This document shows, one piece after another, positions 2,081 through 53,696 of a stretch of DNA of 64,000 bases. The DNA lies in the IMG/VR virus record IMGVR_UViG_3300041411_000080, positions 186,001 to 250,000 of that record. The stretch is one strand, 5' to 3'. The stretch comes from a virus. The notes beneath the pieces were generated by a model that was given only the letters and a program-made list of their open reading frames with translations, did not search any database and was not told the DNA's origin. A program made the position numbers and the translations under genes. How positions within the stretch are numbered: position 1 is the stretch's first letter; each line of letters opens with the position of its first letter.

Positions 2081-4846
2081 TTACTTGATTGCTTTCTTAG
2101 CAACACCACAGCAAGCGTCAGCTACATCAACGCAATGCTTAGTGATGAACTTGTACAGATCGACGTGTGCTTGAGCAGAGAGCTTCATTGCTGTAGCCAA
2201 TGCATCCACACCTTGTTCGTCACCCTTAACACGACTGTCTGCACCGATTGGCAATGCGCGATCACGAGTAGTACGAATCTTGGATACGCTGCTAACAGCG
2301 CGATCACCCGTAGTGTCAGCCAGCTTACGTGCAATAGCAACGTATGCTTTAGCAAACTTCAGCAGGTTAGCGATATCACCCTTGGACAGTTTGTAAGTAG
2401 AGCTTTCGCTTGTCTTACCAGACTTAACGCCGACTGGAATACCGGTGTGACCCAGTGCTTCGAGTTTGTCGTTACGGGAACTACCGCCAGCTTCACGGAT
2501 CTCAAGTTTGCAACCACCCAACAGACCTTTAGTAAAGGCTGTACTTGGGAAAGCTTCTTTGGTACCACGCAATGCAACAGCTGCATCTAGAGCCTTATCG
2601 ATCTCTTTATCAGAACCTGCACCGATCACGTCATTCAGAGCTTTAATCAGATTGTTCTGGAAAGTCTCAGATGCCTTGATCCCTTTTACAGAGATATCAG
2701 TAGTCAGTTTAAGATCGTCGCCTACTGCTTTAACCAGATTGGTTTCTTCGGTAGACAGATGGCCACGAATACCAGAGATGTCACCGGTAGCGAAGTCAGC
2801 GTCTTTCAATTGAACCAAGCATAGATCGATTTGTTTGTCCAGTGCATCAGCACGAGTCTTAACTTTATCGACCATGCCACTAGCCCACCACTTCTCAACC
2901 TGATGGCTGATGCGATGAGTTGCAGTAGTGATACGGGACAACATACCACGGAAAGATTCCAGAGTAGCCCGATAGGCCAGATCCAAGTCTTTACCGCTGT
3001 AGTCTTCCAGAGCTACTTTAGCAGGAGTCTTATCTTCGAAGTGTGGATCAAGAGCAGCCATCTTCTTACGGAAGGGTTCTACCGAGCCATTCATGAATGC
3101 CAGCAAACCAGCATCATAACGTTCGTTAGCAATACCCAGTTCCAGCAGAGCACGGAAGGTCTCCAGAGATTCTTTCTCTTTCTGAAGTTCTTCAATGGTC
3201 TTGTCACCGATATCCGCTTCCTTCTCTTCAGCATCGCCCCACTCACCAACTTCAGCAGCGTCAGCCATAGCTTCTTCTACATCTTCATCAGTGGTATCGA
3301 CGTCTACATCTTTGACATCCACTTCGCCAGCTTCAAAGTCAGCTGGTTCTTCAGTTTCTTCGATTTCTCCAGCCTCAGCATCCACAGCCCCAGTTTCGTC
3401 AGGGACTTCTTCGCTAGTTTCATCAGGAGACTCGTCAGCAGTTTCTTCAACAGCATCACCGGCATCTTCTTCTACCTCAGCAGTTGCATCAGCTACATCG
3501 TCCATCCCGTCTTGCAGGTCTTCAGAAGTCTGATCAGTTGTGGACTCTTCTACGGTTGCAGCAGAACCGTCACTGTCACCCATGTCACCACCAGCAGGGG
3601 TCAGATCTTCCTCAGCATCAACACCGAGTTCTTCTGCACCTTCCAATGGAGTATCATCGTCTTCAGCATCTGGTTCTTCAGTTACCTGAGTAGCAGTGGT
3701 TTCATCGTCACCCGAAGTAGCCGGAGCTTCAGCTTCTGCAACAATCTCTTCGCCGTTGTTCTGATCATCCGAAACAGTAGTATCGCCAGTCTCAGGAATC
3801 TCACCCGATTGCTCTGGGGTTTCATCTGCAATGAAAGCAGTTTGGTCAGCATCGGAACTAGCAGCTTCAGCAGTTACGTCGGCGGCTTCGTTCTGTTGCT
3901 CTACCTCTTCGGTAACGTCTGGGGTTTCAGTTGAATCATCGGTCGACGTTTCAGCACTCTCATCACCCGTGCTATCGCTAGACTCGGGTGGGCTATCGGC
4001 CAGAGGATCTTCTGTACTAGTATCGTCGACACCCAGATCAGTAGTATCTGTATCACCAGCAGATACATCATCAGTACCCAGATCATCGGGAGTAGACTCA
4101 TCAGTGGTAGTATCGGTACTATCACCCAAGTCTTCAGCGCCATCCAGAGGCGTGTCATCATCTTCTGCTGCATCGCCACCGAGATCTCCCAAATCGTCAG
4201 TACCTGCATCATCGGTACCAGCGGCTACATCACCGAGATCATCGCCACCCGCATCGAGGGTATCATCATTGATGGCTTCGCCGAGTTCTTCGTCGGAGTT
4301 CTCATCAACTTCTGCTGCTTCTTGATGAATGTCTTTAGCGGCAGCTTCTTCCTCTACCTCTTCTTCGATATCATCTTCAGCCGCGTCTTCTTCAGCATTC
4401 TCAGCTGCTTGTTCTTCGGTAACGGCATTACCGTTAACGTCAGTATCTTCACTGGCTTCACCGCCAGTTGCTTCAGCGGTTGCTTCTTGAACGATCTCGT
4501 CCTTAGTCGCAGCAGCTTGTTCACCCTCTTGGAACAGTTCGGTCATCTCAACGGATTGCTCACTGTCACCAGTGGTGGCATCTACAACTGGTGCGCCGTC
4601 AAGAGGAGTGGTATCTTCGGTCTGAGTGATATCAGCTTTGTCGTCTGCTCCGATTTCTTCTTTCGGAGTGGCTTGACCAATATCATCGCCTGCCTCAGTA
4701 GTATCCGCGTCAGGTACGATGGGTGCAACTACTTCTTCAGCATCAGCTGTCGAGATAGCGCCCTGCTCATCAAGTTCCTTAGCAGTCTCTTCAGTGTGAT
4801 CTTCTTTAGACACTCGGAAAAGATTTTGGGAAGTCACTTTCAACAT
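2081..4846 (-). CDS. Inner-body protein precursor with giant acidic propeptide, 921 aa
   Basis: Residues about 15-560 are extremely rich in Asp, Glu, Ala and Thr, with degenerate repeats such as DDTPLDGAEDLG and DDTPLEGAEELG. This is the look of a disordered, scaffold-like propeptide. The C-terminal 350 residues are helical and carry VALEDY (about 610) and TLESF (about 630), matching the small-residue-X-Glu sites that the phiKZ prohead protease is known to cut. The same layout of acidic N-part, LE-[DS]-[YF] motif and amphipathic helices recurs in the next genes. I infer an internal head protein whose propeptide is removed during maturation. It is the largest member of the series here. Confidence 0.7.
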   Translation of the reverse strand: MLKVTSQNLFRVSKEDHTEETAKELDEQGAISTADAEEVVAPIVPDADTTEAGDDIGQATPKEEIGADDKADITQTEDTTPLDGAPVVDATTGDSEQSVEMTELFQEGEQAAATKDEIVQEATAEATGGEASEDTDVNGNAVTEEQAAENAEEDAAEDDIEEEVEEEAAAKDIHQEAAEVDENSDEELGEAINDDTLDAGGDDLGDVAAGTDDAGTDDLGDLGGDAAEDDDTPLDGAEDLGDSTDTTTDESTPDDLGTDDVSAGDTDTTDLGVDDTSTEDPLADSPPESSDSTGDESAETSTDDSTETPDVTEEVEQQNEAADVTAEAASSDADQTAFIADETPEQSGEIPETGDTTVSDDQNNGEEIVAEAEAPATSGDDETTATQVTEEPDAEDDDTPLEGAEELGVDAEEDLTPAGGDMGDSDGSAATVEESTTDQTSEDLQDGMDDVADATAEVEEDAGDAVEETADESPDETSEEVPDETGAVDAEAGEIEETEEPADFEAGEVDVKDVDVDTTDEDVEEAMADAAEVGEWGDAEEKEADIGDKTIEELQKEKESLETFRALLELGIANERYDAGLLAFMNGSVEPFRKKMAALDPHFEDKTPAKVALEDYSGKDLDLAYRATLESFRGMLSRITTATHRISHQVEKWWASGMVDKVKTRADALDKQIDLCLVQLKDADFATGDISGIRGHLSTEETNLVKAVGDDLKLTTDISVKGIKASETFQNNLIKALNDVIGAGSDKEIDKALDAAVALRGTKEAFPSTAFTKGLLGGCKLEIREAGGSSRNDKLEALGHTGIPVGVKSGKTSESSTYKLSKGDIANLLKFAKAYVAIARKLADTTGDRAVSSVSKIRTTRDRALPIGADSRVKGDEQGVDALATAMKLSAQAHVDLYKFITKHCVDVADACCGVAKKAIK

Positions 4847-22259: not shown

Positions 22260-24365
22260 ATGAGCGAAGATTTCAAACAGGAAGATGTGGTAGGCATTGA
22301 AGCCAAACACATTACCTTTGTAAGTGAACGTGGTGGTCGTAATGACATGCACGTTGTGAAAGAAGTTGTACACCTTAAGGACAAGCGTAGGATTAGTCGA
22401 ATCAAAATGATTCCTAACTACGAAAGACCTTTCTATATCGATCCAGCAGTTTACAAAGAAGAACGACTGAGACCGTACAAAGAGAAGAAGGACTATATGC
22501 CGCTGAATAAGCTGCGTAAGTTCATGACTACTCAGTCTAAGATGCCATTTGCAGTAGCAAAGGCTTTGAAAGATTACAGCATGGGACCTAACCCAAGGAT
22601 GCGACAGTTAAGTCGTAGCCCTTACCTTTATGGCTCTGACGTAAGTTCTGTATGCTGCTTGAAGAACGACTATCGGACCGACTATCCGGGATTGATCTCA
22701 CGTAACACCGTAGCAGGTGGCGACATCGAGACCAACGTATACGAAGATGAGAACGATGGGCAGATCATCTGTATGTCTGTTACTCACAAGTCTAACGTAT
22801 ACCTTGCTTATCTGCGTCATTGGGTACAAGACCTTAAAGATCCCATTAAAGAAACGTTTGAAGAACTCGAACGTATTCCTGAATTGGTTACACTGCGTAA
22901 AGCGCGTAACCTGAACATTCAGATCGAAGTAGTAGAGACTCCAGCTGATATCGTTATTCAGTGCATGAAGCGATTGCATGAATGGAAGCCTGACTTCTTT
23001 GCCTTCTGGAACATCGACTTCGACATGTCCAAAATCTTGGCTACGTTGGAGCGTTATGGGATTGATCCAGCTGACGTGTTCAGTGATCCTAATGTCCCTA
23101 AACAGTTTAAGTACTTCCACTATCGTCAAGACCAAGCGATGAACACCACAGCTTCTGGTGTGACTAAGTCTAAAGGTCCAGAAGATCAGTGGCATTGGAT
23201 TACAGCTCCAGCTAGTTTCCAATGCATCGACTCTATGTCTACGTATCGCGTTACTCGTTTGGCTAAGGGTAAGGAATCCAGTTATGCGTTAGATGCAATC
23301 CTTCGTAAAGAACTAAGCGTGGATGAAGAGTCTGAGATTAAGACAGAAGAAGAACTCAAAGCCTTCATTAAGAACGCTAACAAAGCAATGGAAGACCGTT
23401 CGGGTAGTCACCCTTACTGGAGCGTATCGAACCCAGCTGAAGATGTTATCACAACCGAGACCGTTACTGAGACTATTGAAGTTGAAGACGACGATGAGGA
23501 AGAGACTGAGGAAGGGGAAGATGATGACACCGTACCAGACTTCGATGATGACGATACTGTATCAGCGATCTATGAATTCGAAGAACACACGTACGAAGTA
23601 GAACACCGTGAGCCAGTATGGAAATCGGTTGATGAACTCGTATGGGGTGTTAACGTTTTTGAAGGTTACAAGGTTAGCTTTAAGCTGAACTTTGGTAAGT
23701 TGAAGTTTGCAGAAACCGACCACCTGTTCGGGATCGAATGGCACAAAGTGATGCAGACCCAACATAAGGTCCGCTACGGTCTTTACAACATCATCGACAG
23801 TATTCGACTAGAACAACTCGATGAGAAGATCAATGACTTGGCCAGTTCGATTACATTGTTCTCTAAGTCTTCGGACTTTAAGAACTTTAACTCGAACCCT
23901 AAGCGACTCTGTGACGACATGCACTTCTGGTACCTTAACCGACCAGAGCCATGTGTGATTGGTTCTAGTTCTGACCAGATGGTTCATGACTTAGACAAAT
24001 ACGTTGTGGGTCATGATGGGTGGATCGTTACACTGCCTTCCTATATGGCAGGTCCTAATGGTGTTAAGTGTGTTAAAGACTTACCGGACTATCGTTCGTT
24101 GATCTGGACACACGTAGCTGACTTGGACATCGTATCGACTTACCCTAACGTTAGTCAGATCCTGAACATTGCTCGTGAAACTACGGTTATGGAAACTGCT
24201 GCCATCCAAGGCATTAGCGATCACCATAAACGTGAGCTGGGTGTTAACCTGACGGGTTGCCGTGTGAACGTTCTGGAGATTGGCCAGAAGATTCTTAAGG
24301 CTCCACGCTTGGATGTTATCCTTGCAGCTTATCTTGCCTCTAAAGAAACTGAAGTCCCAAAGTAA
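22260..24365 (+). CDS. Family-B DNA polymerase, exonuclease and motif-A part, 701 aa
   Basis: Exo I is seen as GGDIETNVY (about 155), Exo II as FWNIDFDM (about 250) and Exo III as YNIIDSIRL (about 507): the 3'-5' proofreading exonuclease. ADLDIVSTYPN at about 620 matches palm motif A (DxxSxYP). An acidic linker (EDDDEEETEEGEDDD, about 405-425) interrupts the exonuclease domain. The ORF stops about 80 residues after motif A, and neither motif B (KxxxNSxYG) nor motif C (DTD) is present here or elsewhere in the window, so the rest of the polymerase must be encoded elsewhere or be very divergent. The stop directly follows a -1 slippery heptamer. Confidence 0.82.
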   Translation: MSEDFKQEDVVGIEAKHITFVSERGGRNDMHVVKEVVHLKDKRRISRIKMIPNYERPFYIDPAVYKEERLRPYKEKKDYMPLNKLRKFMTTQSKMPFAVAKALKDYSMGPNPRMRQLSRSPYLYGSDVSSVCCLKNDYRTDYPGLISRNTVAGGDIETNVYEDENDGQIICMSVTHKSNVYLAYLRHWVQDLKDPIKETFEELERIPELVTLRKARNLNIQIEVVETPADIVIQCMKRLHEWKPDFFAFWNIDFDMSKILATLERYGIDPADVFSDPNVPKQFKYFHYRQDQAMNTTASGVTKSKGPEDQWHWITAPASFQCIDSMSTYRVTRLAKGKESSYALDAILRKELSVDEESEIKTEEELKAFIKNANKAMEDRSGSHPYWSVSNPAEDVITTETVTETIEVEDDDEEETEEGEDDDTVPDFDDDDTVSAIYEFEEHTYEVEHREPVWKSVDELVWGVNVFEGYKVSFKLNFGKLKFAETDHLFGIEWHKVMQTQHKVRYGLYNIIDSIRLEQLDEKINDLASSITLFSKSSDFKNFNSNPKRLCDDMHFWYLNRPEPCVIGSSSDQMVHDLDKYVVGHDGWIVTLPSYMAGPNGVKCVKDLPDYRSLIWTHVADLDIVSTYPNVSQILNIARETTVMETAAIQGISDHHKRELGVNLTGCRVNVLEIGQKILKAPRLDVILAAYLASKETEVPK

Positions 24366-24415
24366 CTTACCGGTGGAAGCGTCGCGGAGGATTTGAATGC
24401 TCCTCCGTTGGCGAC
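24356..24415 (+). promoter_or_regulatory. Candidate -1 ribosomal frameshift signal at the DNA polymerase stop
   Basis: In the polymerase frame the codons read GTC CCA AAG TAA. CCCAAAG (24356-24362) fits the X XXY YYZ slippery rule exactly, and slipping back one base avoids the stop. Eighteen nt later a strong hairpin follows: GTCG (24381-24384) plus CGGAGGA (24385-24391), a 9-nt loop, TCCTCCG (24401-24407), a 4-nt bulge, and CGAC (24412-24415). The -1 frame then encodes KVTYRWKRRGG and continues without a stop to 24733. The spacer is longer than in typical frameshift sites. Confidence 0.6.
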
Positions 24416-24442
24416 AAACGTTTCAGTGCACTCTTTGCCTAT

Positions 24443-24733
24443 ATGCCGGATGGACGAACTATCGAGTGTCATTATCAGTGTGATGTTAAAGGTTACAATC
24501 CAGGTGGTACAAACTGGAGAGACGGGAAAGGTAAACCTCCTTTGGATACGTCCATAGACCTCTGGGGAGCTTATAAAGATCTTTGGCGAGTGTGGGCCAA
24601 GGCTAACCCGGAACTCATGCGTGAGCTGGCTGTAGGCGCTCAAGCTAATGATCTGTGGTTAAGTGATTGCTTTGCTAATACCGACATCTCCCAAGCCAGA
24701 GCTTTATGCGAACTATTGAATGAGGGTTACTAA
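24443..24733 (+). CDS. Conserved phage protein, possibly expressed as a -1 frameshift extension of DNA polymerase
   Basis: The first ATG in frame is 24443, but no Shine-Dalgarno precedes it, and the frame upstream codes well back to 24359: VTYRWKRRGGFECSSVGDKR then FSALFAYMPDGRTIE. I recall a widespread phage family with just this beginning (basic, GG, CSS.GDKRFSA..A.LPDGRTIE..YQ.DVKGY), so the true protein very likely starts at or before 24359, where no ATG, GTG or TTG exists. The conserved C-terminus (LSDCFANTDISQARALCELLNE) is intact. Either it is fused to the polymerase by frameshifting or it has lost its N-terminus. Biochemical function unknown to me. It overlaps the next ATG by 1 nt. 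Confidence 0.65.
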   Translation: MPDGRTIECHYQCDVKGYNPGGTNWRDGKGKPPLDTSIDLWGAYKDLWRVWAKANPELMRELAVGAQANDLWLSDCFANTDISQARALCELLNEGY

Positions 24734-25257
24734 TGAACGAGGAAGCTAAGACGTTCGATGTAAAGAAACTAGACGGTGAAGCAACGACCGCTTACTTGGC
24801 TATGCCAGATGCAATTAAGTTGTTAGTCCGGTGGGTTGAATTACCTGACATGCACATGTTGAATGAGTTGATGGATGTAGCTGAGAAACTCAAAGCTATT
24901 AAGCCATTGCCTGAAGGAACTAACCTGTTCCGTGGATTCTATCCTACGTCTGCTTATCAAGACACTATGGGTTTGATGAAGCGGGATTGGTTGGGGGCTA
25001 ACGTAAAACCTCATCGTGCAGGTGAGACTTATACGTACGCTCTAGAACGTCCTCTAAGCTTCACTACAGATCAATCCATGGCTGAGGCTTACGGTTCAAC
25101 TGTAATACAGCTACACGGCCAACCAGAGGCTTACGTTTGGATTACAGACGAGCTTAACCTGTTGCTTGCCACAGCTAGACGTAAAGAAGCTAAATCGGAG
25201 AAAGAAGTGATTGTACTTCCTCCCTTCGATGCACACTTCACGATCCTTAAGTCATAA
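24733..25257 (+). CDS. Probable mono-ADP-ribosyltransferase, 174 aa
   Basis: The order of motifs fits the R-S-E class of ADP-ribosyltransferases: NLFRGF (Arg, about residue 65), ERPLSFTTDQSMAEAYG (Ser-Phe-Thr, about 109), and SEKEVIVLPPF (E-x-E, about 155-157, followed by the typical hydrophobic strand). Such enzymes transfer ADP-ribose from NAD to host proteins; T4 Alt and ModA modify host RNA polymerase. The length is that of a single catalytic domain with a short helical N-part. It starts in the stop of the previous gene (TAATGA), so it is translationally coupled. Substrate unknown. The call is from motif order only. Confidence 0.6.
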   Translation: MNEEAKTFDVKKLDGEATTAYLAMPDAIKLLVRWVELPDMHMLNELMDVAEKLKAIKPLPEGTNLFRGFYPTSAYQDTMGLMKRDWLGANVKPHRAGETYTYALERPLSFTTDQSMAEAYGSTVIQLHGQPEAYVWITDELNLLLATARRKEAKSEKEVIVLPPFDAHFTILKS

Positions 25258-52266: not shown

Positions 52267-52447
52267 ACTCAGTCAATTGGCTATCTAAGTCAAACTTCCG
52301 TTCAACCCGCAGTTTACGCTTACGCGCAGCTCTCACTAGGACACGTGCATCTTTACGGTCTTTGTAAGTACCATGCGTAGGAACAACACAGCGCCATTCT
52401 TCTGGGATGGTAACTTCTTTACCACGTCGTATTCTAGTTTCAGCCAT
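52265..52447 (-). CDS. Basic small protein, 60 aa
   Basis: A strongly basic sequence (MAETRIRRGKEVTIPEEWRC ... RVLVRAARKRKLRVERKFDL) that could bind nucleic acid. The ATG overlaps the stop of the 418-aa gene (ATGGCTGA), a coupled start. Its stop lies inside the promoter element of the next unit. Unknown family. Confidence 0.55.
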   Translation of the reverse strand: MAETRIRRGKEVTIPEEWRCVVPTHGTYKDRKDARVLVRAARKRKLRVERKFDLDSQLTE

Positions 52448-53696
52448 TGAACAAACTCGTTACGTCTACTTCGACCTTAACCAGATCAAAGAAAGGGTGA
52501 TTGCGTGGAATCATCAACGCTGTGACTTCACTGTAAACGTCACTAGAGATACCAAGGATCTCATAGTTAACCCCGACCTCGACAGTGTAGTTACTATCAC
52601 GAACACTGATACCGACCCTACTAAAGCCGTTAACGAAGTTATAGAACGGTTCACTGTAAACAGATTCACGTTTCGGCAAGCCGCCCATTTTAATAGGGTA
52701 CTTACGACCATTATATTCGACGAACCAAGAACCGGCTTCATCTGTACTAATGCATACATCTGTGTTTTCGATCATATCAGGTTCTTCTGTTTCTAATTGA
52801 GGTAGGACTGGAATGAATGGTGGTCCGATCTTGCTGATGAGGTCGACGAGTGCATTCGCCCAATACATAATTTCAGGCGAACCTAGCATCGTGAACAGGA
52901 TAACCCGATCAACAGGATTGTTATCTAGATCTAATCCAATGCCGCATGACCACATGTAGAATGGATGGATCAGACGCATTACTTCATAGCGATGCTTACA
53001 TTCTTCTGCGGCTTCGGTATAATCTAGACCTAGCGCATGTGACAACACTGTACTCCATGGATCAGAGTACAACGTCTCTTTTACTGTATCGTAGAACGCA
53101 TCAGCCAATACGTGGAGATCCGTACTGACCTGACCTACTGGCCAGATATTAAGTAGTTCCCGCACTTCGTTCATCAACCACTCCGTACTTTGCTCATACG
53201 TGAGATCACTGTAGCTCATGTGAATGAAGGGCTTGTTGCAGCGTTCCCAGAAATCTCGCCTGAAAGCGTCTTCGCTAGAAAACTTTGCTCGGTTACGGAT
53301 TCGCCATAGATCGAAAGGATGCGGCAAGTGGAACGCACCCATCAACCTTTCGTATTCATCCATACTTCCTATGGGCCCAATGGGTTGATAGCACGCCGAC
53401 ATTATTTTCCAACGGTCGTCTGTCCAACGCATGTTTACTACGTGTGTCCACCATGTTGCGGCAGCCACTCTACTACGACGTTCTTTGGCGTCCAATATGT
53501 CCTCAGCCCTTTGTGCTTCTACCTTCGCTTGGTTCTCCCGCCAGTTGGCCCGAAACTCAAGCAACTTTTTTCTGAAGAACCCGTAAGGCGCCCGGTTCGT
53601 TACACTGGTTAGGTCATCCAAAGCTTCCCGTTCAGCTATGCACAACCTGTCGGGGTTGTGACAAAGACAGACGGTCCGACAGGCTGGTGTGTGCAT
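52440..53696 (-). CDS. Unknown protein, 418 aa, between beta' N-part and small genes
   Basis: The N-terminus carries a His/Cys-rich start (MHTPACRTVCLCHNPDRLC: C6, C10, C12, C19), a possible metal site, then a charged helix (KVEAQRAEDILDAKERRSRV). The C-terminal 110 residues end VTALMIPRNHPFFDLVKV, the same LMIPxxHP motif as the small genes at 49877 and 50820. AAAGGGTAAG precedes the ATG, which stands 3 nt after the RNA polymerase gene, so both are cotranscribed. Function unknown. Confidence 0.55.
   Translation of the reverse strand: MHTPACRTVCLCHNPDRLCIAEREALDDLTSVTNRAPYGFFRKKLLEFRANWRENQAKVEAQRAEDILDAKERRSRVAAATWWTHVVNMRWTDDRWKIMSACYQPIGPIGSMDEYERLMGAFHLPHPFDLWRIRNRAKFSSEDAFRRDFWERCNKPFIHMSYSDLTYEQSTEWLMNEVRELLNIWPVGQVSTDLHVLADAFYDTVKETLYSDPWSTVLSHALGLDYTEAAEECKHRYEVMRLIHPFYMWSCGIGLDLDNNPVDRVILFTMLGSPEIMYWANALVDLISKIGPPFIPVLPQLETEEPDMIENTDVCISTDEAGSWFVEYNGRKYPIKMGGLPKRESVYSEPFYNFVNGFSRVGISVRDSNYTVEVGVNYEILGISSDVYSEVTALMIPRNHPFFDLVKVEVDVTSLFNG

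Follow-up and report, generated by a model that had tools for sequence, protein, structure and literature searches.

The window analyzed here is a stretch of 64,000 nucleotides from a virus in IMG/VR (positions 186001 to 250000 of the 320,858-base record IMGVR_UViG_3300041411_000080). It is phiKZ-like (phiKZ being the model for giant phages that form a nucleus), and in DNA comparisons the nearest named phages were 201phi2-1, Viktualia, the PA1C group, and PhiPA3. We focus on the end of its gene for a phiKZ gp82-type DNA polymerase/exonuclease subunit (positions 22260 to 24365, plus strand; 701 amino acids in the zero frame) and on a conserved domain encoded past that end in the -1 frame. The gene product, hereafter called the polymerase, matched the phrog_3011 profile over its full length (residues 4 to 699, E = 4.9e-228) and carries the family-B motif A, DLDIVSTYP, at residue 621. 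The polymerase frame ends in GAA GTC CCA AAG TAA. As pointed out in the initial annotation, this end contains a slippery heptamer, C_CCA_AAG, in phase with the polymerase codons (positions 24356 to 24362, plus strand), and the zero-frame stop TAA follows directly (positions 24363 to 24365, plus strand). From the heptamer, the -1 frame reads PKVTYRWKRRGGFECSSVGDK... and stays open until a TAA at 24731 to 24733. In an E. coli series, C_CC.A_AA.G, G_GG.A_AA.G, and A_AA.A_AA.G (hereafter the top three heptamers) ranked highest in -1 efficiency in the presence of stimulators, and C_CC.A_AA.G gave 54% with the IS3 pseudoknot, the highest value measured (PMC4066793). CCCAAAG occurred in phase only once in the long open reading frames (ORFs) of the window (16,738 codons), at the polymerase junction. 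The same ORFs held one other in-phase top three heptamer, A_AAA_AAG at codon 41 of the minus-strand ORF at 52440 to 53696.

The -1 extension (positions 24356 to 24733, plus strand) encodes a 125-residue domain and its stop codon. It had been recognized from the sequence alone as a common phage protein family, which we identified as phrog_9995; the profile covers residues 5 to 125 of the -1 product, nearly its full length (E = 7.6e-51). Its predicted structure, based on a 36-sequence alignment, had a pLDDT of 96.8 and a pTM of 0.90 and was ordered from the first residues past the slip. The domain is under strong purifying selection, with a ratio of nonsynonymous to synonymous change (pN/pS) of 0.06 between the window and contig L017 and of ~0.2 to 0.5 for distant pairs, and its length is intact in all lineages. 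In the phage annotations examined it is fragmentary, missed, or mis-started: the phiKZ annotation contains only PHIKZ082.1, of 38 residues, and the Viktualia annotation has three tiny ORFs in its place.

The junction was compared across related phages, using annotated phages and IMG/VR contigs, which yielded 18 lineages with the polymerase followed by the domain in the -1 frame. Each of the 18 had exactly one in-phase top three heptamer, always in the short overlap of the two frames. C_CCA_AAG was present in 11 lineages (the window, L017, L018, L020, phiKZ, PhiPA3, the PA1C group, HPP-Temi, Phabio, 201phi2-1, and Viktualia), and the lineages without CCCAAAG carry GGGAAAG or AAAAAAG in its place: G_GGA_AAG in L035, and A_AAA_AAG in six (Noxifer, L041/L121, L116, L117, L118/L119, and L120). 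Across these polymerases, the top three heptamers numbered 18 in ~405 overlap codons versus 0 in the other 10,680 codons, and in 11 of the 18 lineages the zero-frame stop was directly adjacent. Judged by these sequences, the phages have swapped their slip site among exactly the three heptamers that are most efficient in E. coli. Among the C_CCA_AAG lineages, the codon ahead of CCA encodes a varying amino acid (V, S, L, A, N, or P) and invariably has C as its third base, indicating that this base is needed by the slippery site rather than by the polymerase protein.

Initiation signals of the domain's own were scarce. In the window, the -1 frame opens 11 codons ahead of the conserved core, and these codons include no ATG, GTG, or TTG; the first ATG, at 24443, lies within the conserved part, as had been stated in the initial annotation. 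A start codon between frame opening and core was absent in 13 of the 18 lineages, phiKZ and the window included. In the remaining five (PhiPA3, L020, the PA1C group, 201phi2-1, and Viktualia) a start-like codon was present, with a binding site ahead of it in none. Thus, no relative among the 18 was found that keeps the domain with its own ATG and binding site and lacks the heptamer.

Programmed -1 ribosomal frameshifting explains this junction far better than its rivals do, and on the strength of the sequence comparisons we consider it very likely. The observation itself, of a conserved frame break with a heptamer, is real. Expression of the domain as a polymerase extension through -1 recoding had been proposed from the window alone, and the heptamer in all 18 lineages, together with the absence of any start codon of the domain's own that has a binding site ahead of it, supports that proposal. 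The other suggestion made then, that an insertion destroyed the start of the domain, was not supported, as the frame break is conserved and in relatives that lack the domain the polymerase likewise aligns as far as roughly the junction. In the mechanism we propose, a gp82-type mRNA would give rise to two proteins from one start. Most ribosomes would stop at the UAA just past CCA AAG and release the 701-residue subunit. In a fraction of them, tRNA-Pro and tRNA-Lys would slip jointly from C_CCA_AAG to CCC_AAA and continue in the -1 frame. The predicted frameshift product has 824 residues, with a compact domain of ~120 residues joined C-terminally through the variable tail that follows the conserved core of the polymerase, and this fusion, the rarer of the two forms, would become part of the replication machinery of the phage. 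The slippage, its rate, and the place of a minority fusion in that machinery are our inference. No tRNA genes were found in the window.

Several observations weigh against frameshifting. A sister group, the Psa21-like phages, encodes the domain in +1 (= -2) and lacks the heptamer. The hairpin predicted downstream of the heptamer in the window, described below, has changed or is missing in phiKZ, Phabio, 201phi2-1, Viktualia, and L035, and it lies 18 nt from the heptamer versus ~5 to 9 nt for a canonical downstream structure. Searches of the literature on phiKZ gp82 and on jumbo-phage or polymerase frameshifting returned no trans-frame product, no reporter measurement, and no report of frameshifting for the gene. 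Finally, PhiPA3 and L020 have TAATG at the polymerase stop, so that re-initiation is possible there. If ribosomes stopped at the polymerase stop and restarted nearby, the domain would be made as a separate protein. This alternative would also draw on the GTG near the polymerase stop in the PA1C group, 201phi2-1, and Viktualia, and on free-standing relatives of the domain (in Achromobacter and Delftia phages and many contigs) that begin with an ATG just ahead of the same core. However, 13 lineages offer no start codon before the core and the other five no binding site, and re-initiation leaves the in-phase top three heptamer in every lineage unexplained; we regard it as very unlikely.

Repair of the break at the RNA level, by transcriptional slippage or splicing rather than by the ribosome, appears more improbable still. 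The same gene contains insertions in PhiPA3 and HPP-Temi, and A_AAA_AAG includes a run of A, but those insertions lie upstream of the junction, and what has been conserved is the phase of the heptamer relative to the codons, a property read by the ribosome alone. That the -1 frame is a remnant, either decaying or not expressed, with the heptamer a by-product of a conserved Pro-Lys tail, would fit with gene callers mostly missing the domain but is hardly credible given the strong purifying selection, the intact length in all lineages, heptamers that differ along with the tails (PK, GK, and KK), and a first base that is invariant though its codon varies.

The Psa21-like clade was represented by nine junctions (L007, L008, L010, L023, L024, L026, L028, L031, and L032, at approximately positions 3080 to 3520), in each of which the domain again follows the polymerase. 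Within the polymerase frame of these junctions, GAA AAG AAG is invariant amid variable codons. The codon at the possible start position is TTG, GTG, CTG, ACG, or none of these, with no consistent start. A tRNA-Lys re-pairing two bases back on AAA could account for this arrangement, to go by its sequence; weak initiation may be an alternative, and the invariance of GAA AAG AAG may arise from two-frame coding by itself. We consider it possible, rather than probable, that sister groups use two modes of recoding at this junction, -1 frameshifting on X_XXA_AAG in most lineages and -2 (or +1) frameshifting at GAA AAG AAG in the Psa21-like phages. If this is true, selection keeps the fusion while the mode of recoding changes.

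The initial annotation had also described a strong bulged hairpin downstream of the heptamer. A predicted RNA hairpin of 11 pairs with a bulge, GUCGC-GGAGGA...UCCUCC-(GUUG)-GCGAC, indeed lies 18 nt 3' of the heptamer (positions 24381 to 24415, plus strand). Its folding energy of -18.4 kcal/mol (z = -0.96) was no better than that of shuffled sequence, and its role as a frameshift stimulator is weakly supported. The hairpin is almost unchanged in the window, L017, L018, L020, PhiPA3, and HHBS36_1, and mostly so in HPP-Temi, despite divergence of the remaining gene. Covariation gave no support, because the sequences of this main group hardly differ and the five lineages named above as lacking or altering the helix do not preserve it. 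Approximately the first 20 codons past the slip (positions 24356 to 24424, plus strand) showed reduced synonymous change, with a value of 0.34 in this first stretch versus 0.73 in the remainder (main group plus phiKZ). The lowest 20-column synonymous window began at column 4, and a value as low was reached in 91 of 20,000 random column sets. Synonymous constraint was significant for the pair L020-PhiPA3 (p = 8.6e-6) and not for several other pairs. This pattern suggests that the RNA stretch is under extra constraint in the main-group phages, and the hairpin may raise the slippage rate in the lineage of the window. A Shine-Dalgarno (SD)-like sequence upstream of the heptamer was considered as a second candidate stimulator and set aside, as it is confined to some lineages. 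The hairpin also contains GGAGGA-n5-ATG (positions 24386 to 24399), a good-looking start site in the third frame. The ORF from this ATG has 28 codons in the window and six in L017, so its length is not conserved, and the start is hidden in the stem.

Known cases of the same kind offer useful comparisons. In bacterial dnaX (tau/gamma of DNA polymerase III), a -1 slip on a top-class heptamer likewise lets a replication gene yield two products with a common start, and that heptamer, A_AAA_AAG, is of the type used by six lineages here. The slip yields the shorter product in dnaX and would yield the longer one here, and the phage exonuclease/polymerase gene is unrelated to dnaX. The lambda G/GT tail-assembly chaperones (Xu, Hendrix and Duda 2004, cited in PMC3711429) gain a C-terminal domain through a -1 frameshift that is conserved in phages and whose slip sequences vary between them. 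Theirs is a tail morphogenesis gene, whereas the gene here is a replication gene with its slip beside or near the stop codon. The known annotations of the phrog_3011 family (phiKZ gp82/201phi2-1 gp144), to which the window gene belongs over its full length, stop at the zero-frame stop, and here a -1 extension is described. In a published screen, knock-down of phiKZ gp82 impairs infection, and the searched portion of its text does not mention frameshifting (PMC12571901). The predicted second gp82 product, with its C-terminal domain, seems to have escaped notice because gene callers terminate the gene at its stop codon. Although -1 frameshifting is a mechanism of an already known kind, this gene as an instance of it, its fusion product, and the turnover of its slip sites appear to be unreported in the literature searched. 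If the reading as -1 frameshifting is correct, it provides a dnaX-like two-product case among phage replication proteins, accounts for the failure of annotations to include a conserved domain or to place its start correctly, and offers a natural series of slip sites exchanging among the three most slippery heptamers.

The domain behaves as a mobile module, occurring free-standing in small phages or in frame within long proteins. Its partners in the long proteins include a PIF1-type helicase plus an RNase H-like domain (L094), DUF4326 plus SLOG (L042), and DUF7831 plus SLOG (L081). The in-frame long-protein copies (L094:1-5019, L042:3165-4268, L055, L061, L062, L065, L072, L074, L081, L084, L089, L096, and L097) come from cyanobacterial genomes and uncultivated phages. 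The domain had no Pfam hit at E <= 1 and no PADLOC match. Sequence matches in the Protein Data Bank (PDB) were weak and mostly to ribosomal protein L3, and we judged them to be chance. There is some likeness to NADAR (PF08719) and DUF4326: the domain motif FSA..A...DGRTIE..YQ..KG resembles the NADAR signature DG..(T/S)xEHYYQA, and both names are abundant among the sub-threshold fold matches. These included PDB entry 8bau (TM-score 0.42, E = 6.9) and viral NADAR models with TM-scores up to 0.62, all with E > 0.5 (best NADAR TM-score 0.62, E = 0.82). However, the domain had no match to NADAR in Pfam, and hhalign aligned DGR-TIExxYQ with the NADAR signature at a probability of only 0.6 to 1.3%; homology was not significant by profile-profile comparison, and we keep it as a lead that is not established. 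NADAR domains are presumed to process derivatives of ADP-ribose (PMC9503650). Together with the sub-threshold matches, this suggests, as a lead and not a result, that a minority of the exonuclease subunits might carry an ADP-ribose-processing or DNA-protecting role. The ATG of the next gene (positions 24733 to 25257) overlaps the stop codon of the domain (TAATG), and its translation may thus be coupled to the frameshifted frame. This gene resembles ADP-ribosyltransferases by eye only, and its profile match is phrog_29772, of unknown function.

The polymerase itself is best seen as an exonuclease-bearing subunit. Exonuclease-like motifs (VAGGDIET, FWNIDFD, and YGLYNIID) were read by eye in the 701-residue product, and the C-terminus lies ~80 residues beyond motif A. 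Stretches resembling motifs B and C (FKINNNSYSGA and SDTDS) are found outside the window, in a separate 726-codon open frame on the minus strand (L021), near G000:C1:253063-253410. According to a survey of giant phages, the polymerases of the phiKZ group have no exonuclease fused to them, and the exonuclease is encoded at another place (PMC7824862). From these sequence features, the family-B polymerase appears to be split over two distant genes. A Pfam search assigned no family to the polymerase product, and its profile had no match among PDB sequences. Two relatives carry an interruption of the polymerase gene 5' of the junction. The PhiPA3 ORF (L005:3304-3700) ends in HVADLD* and resumes with IVSTYPNVS, within motif A, and in HPP-Temi (L004:3187-4785) the interruption holds an HNH endonuclease gene; to judge from their sequences, both look like intron insertions.
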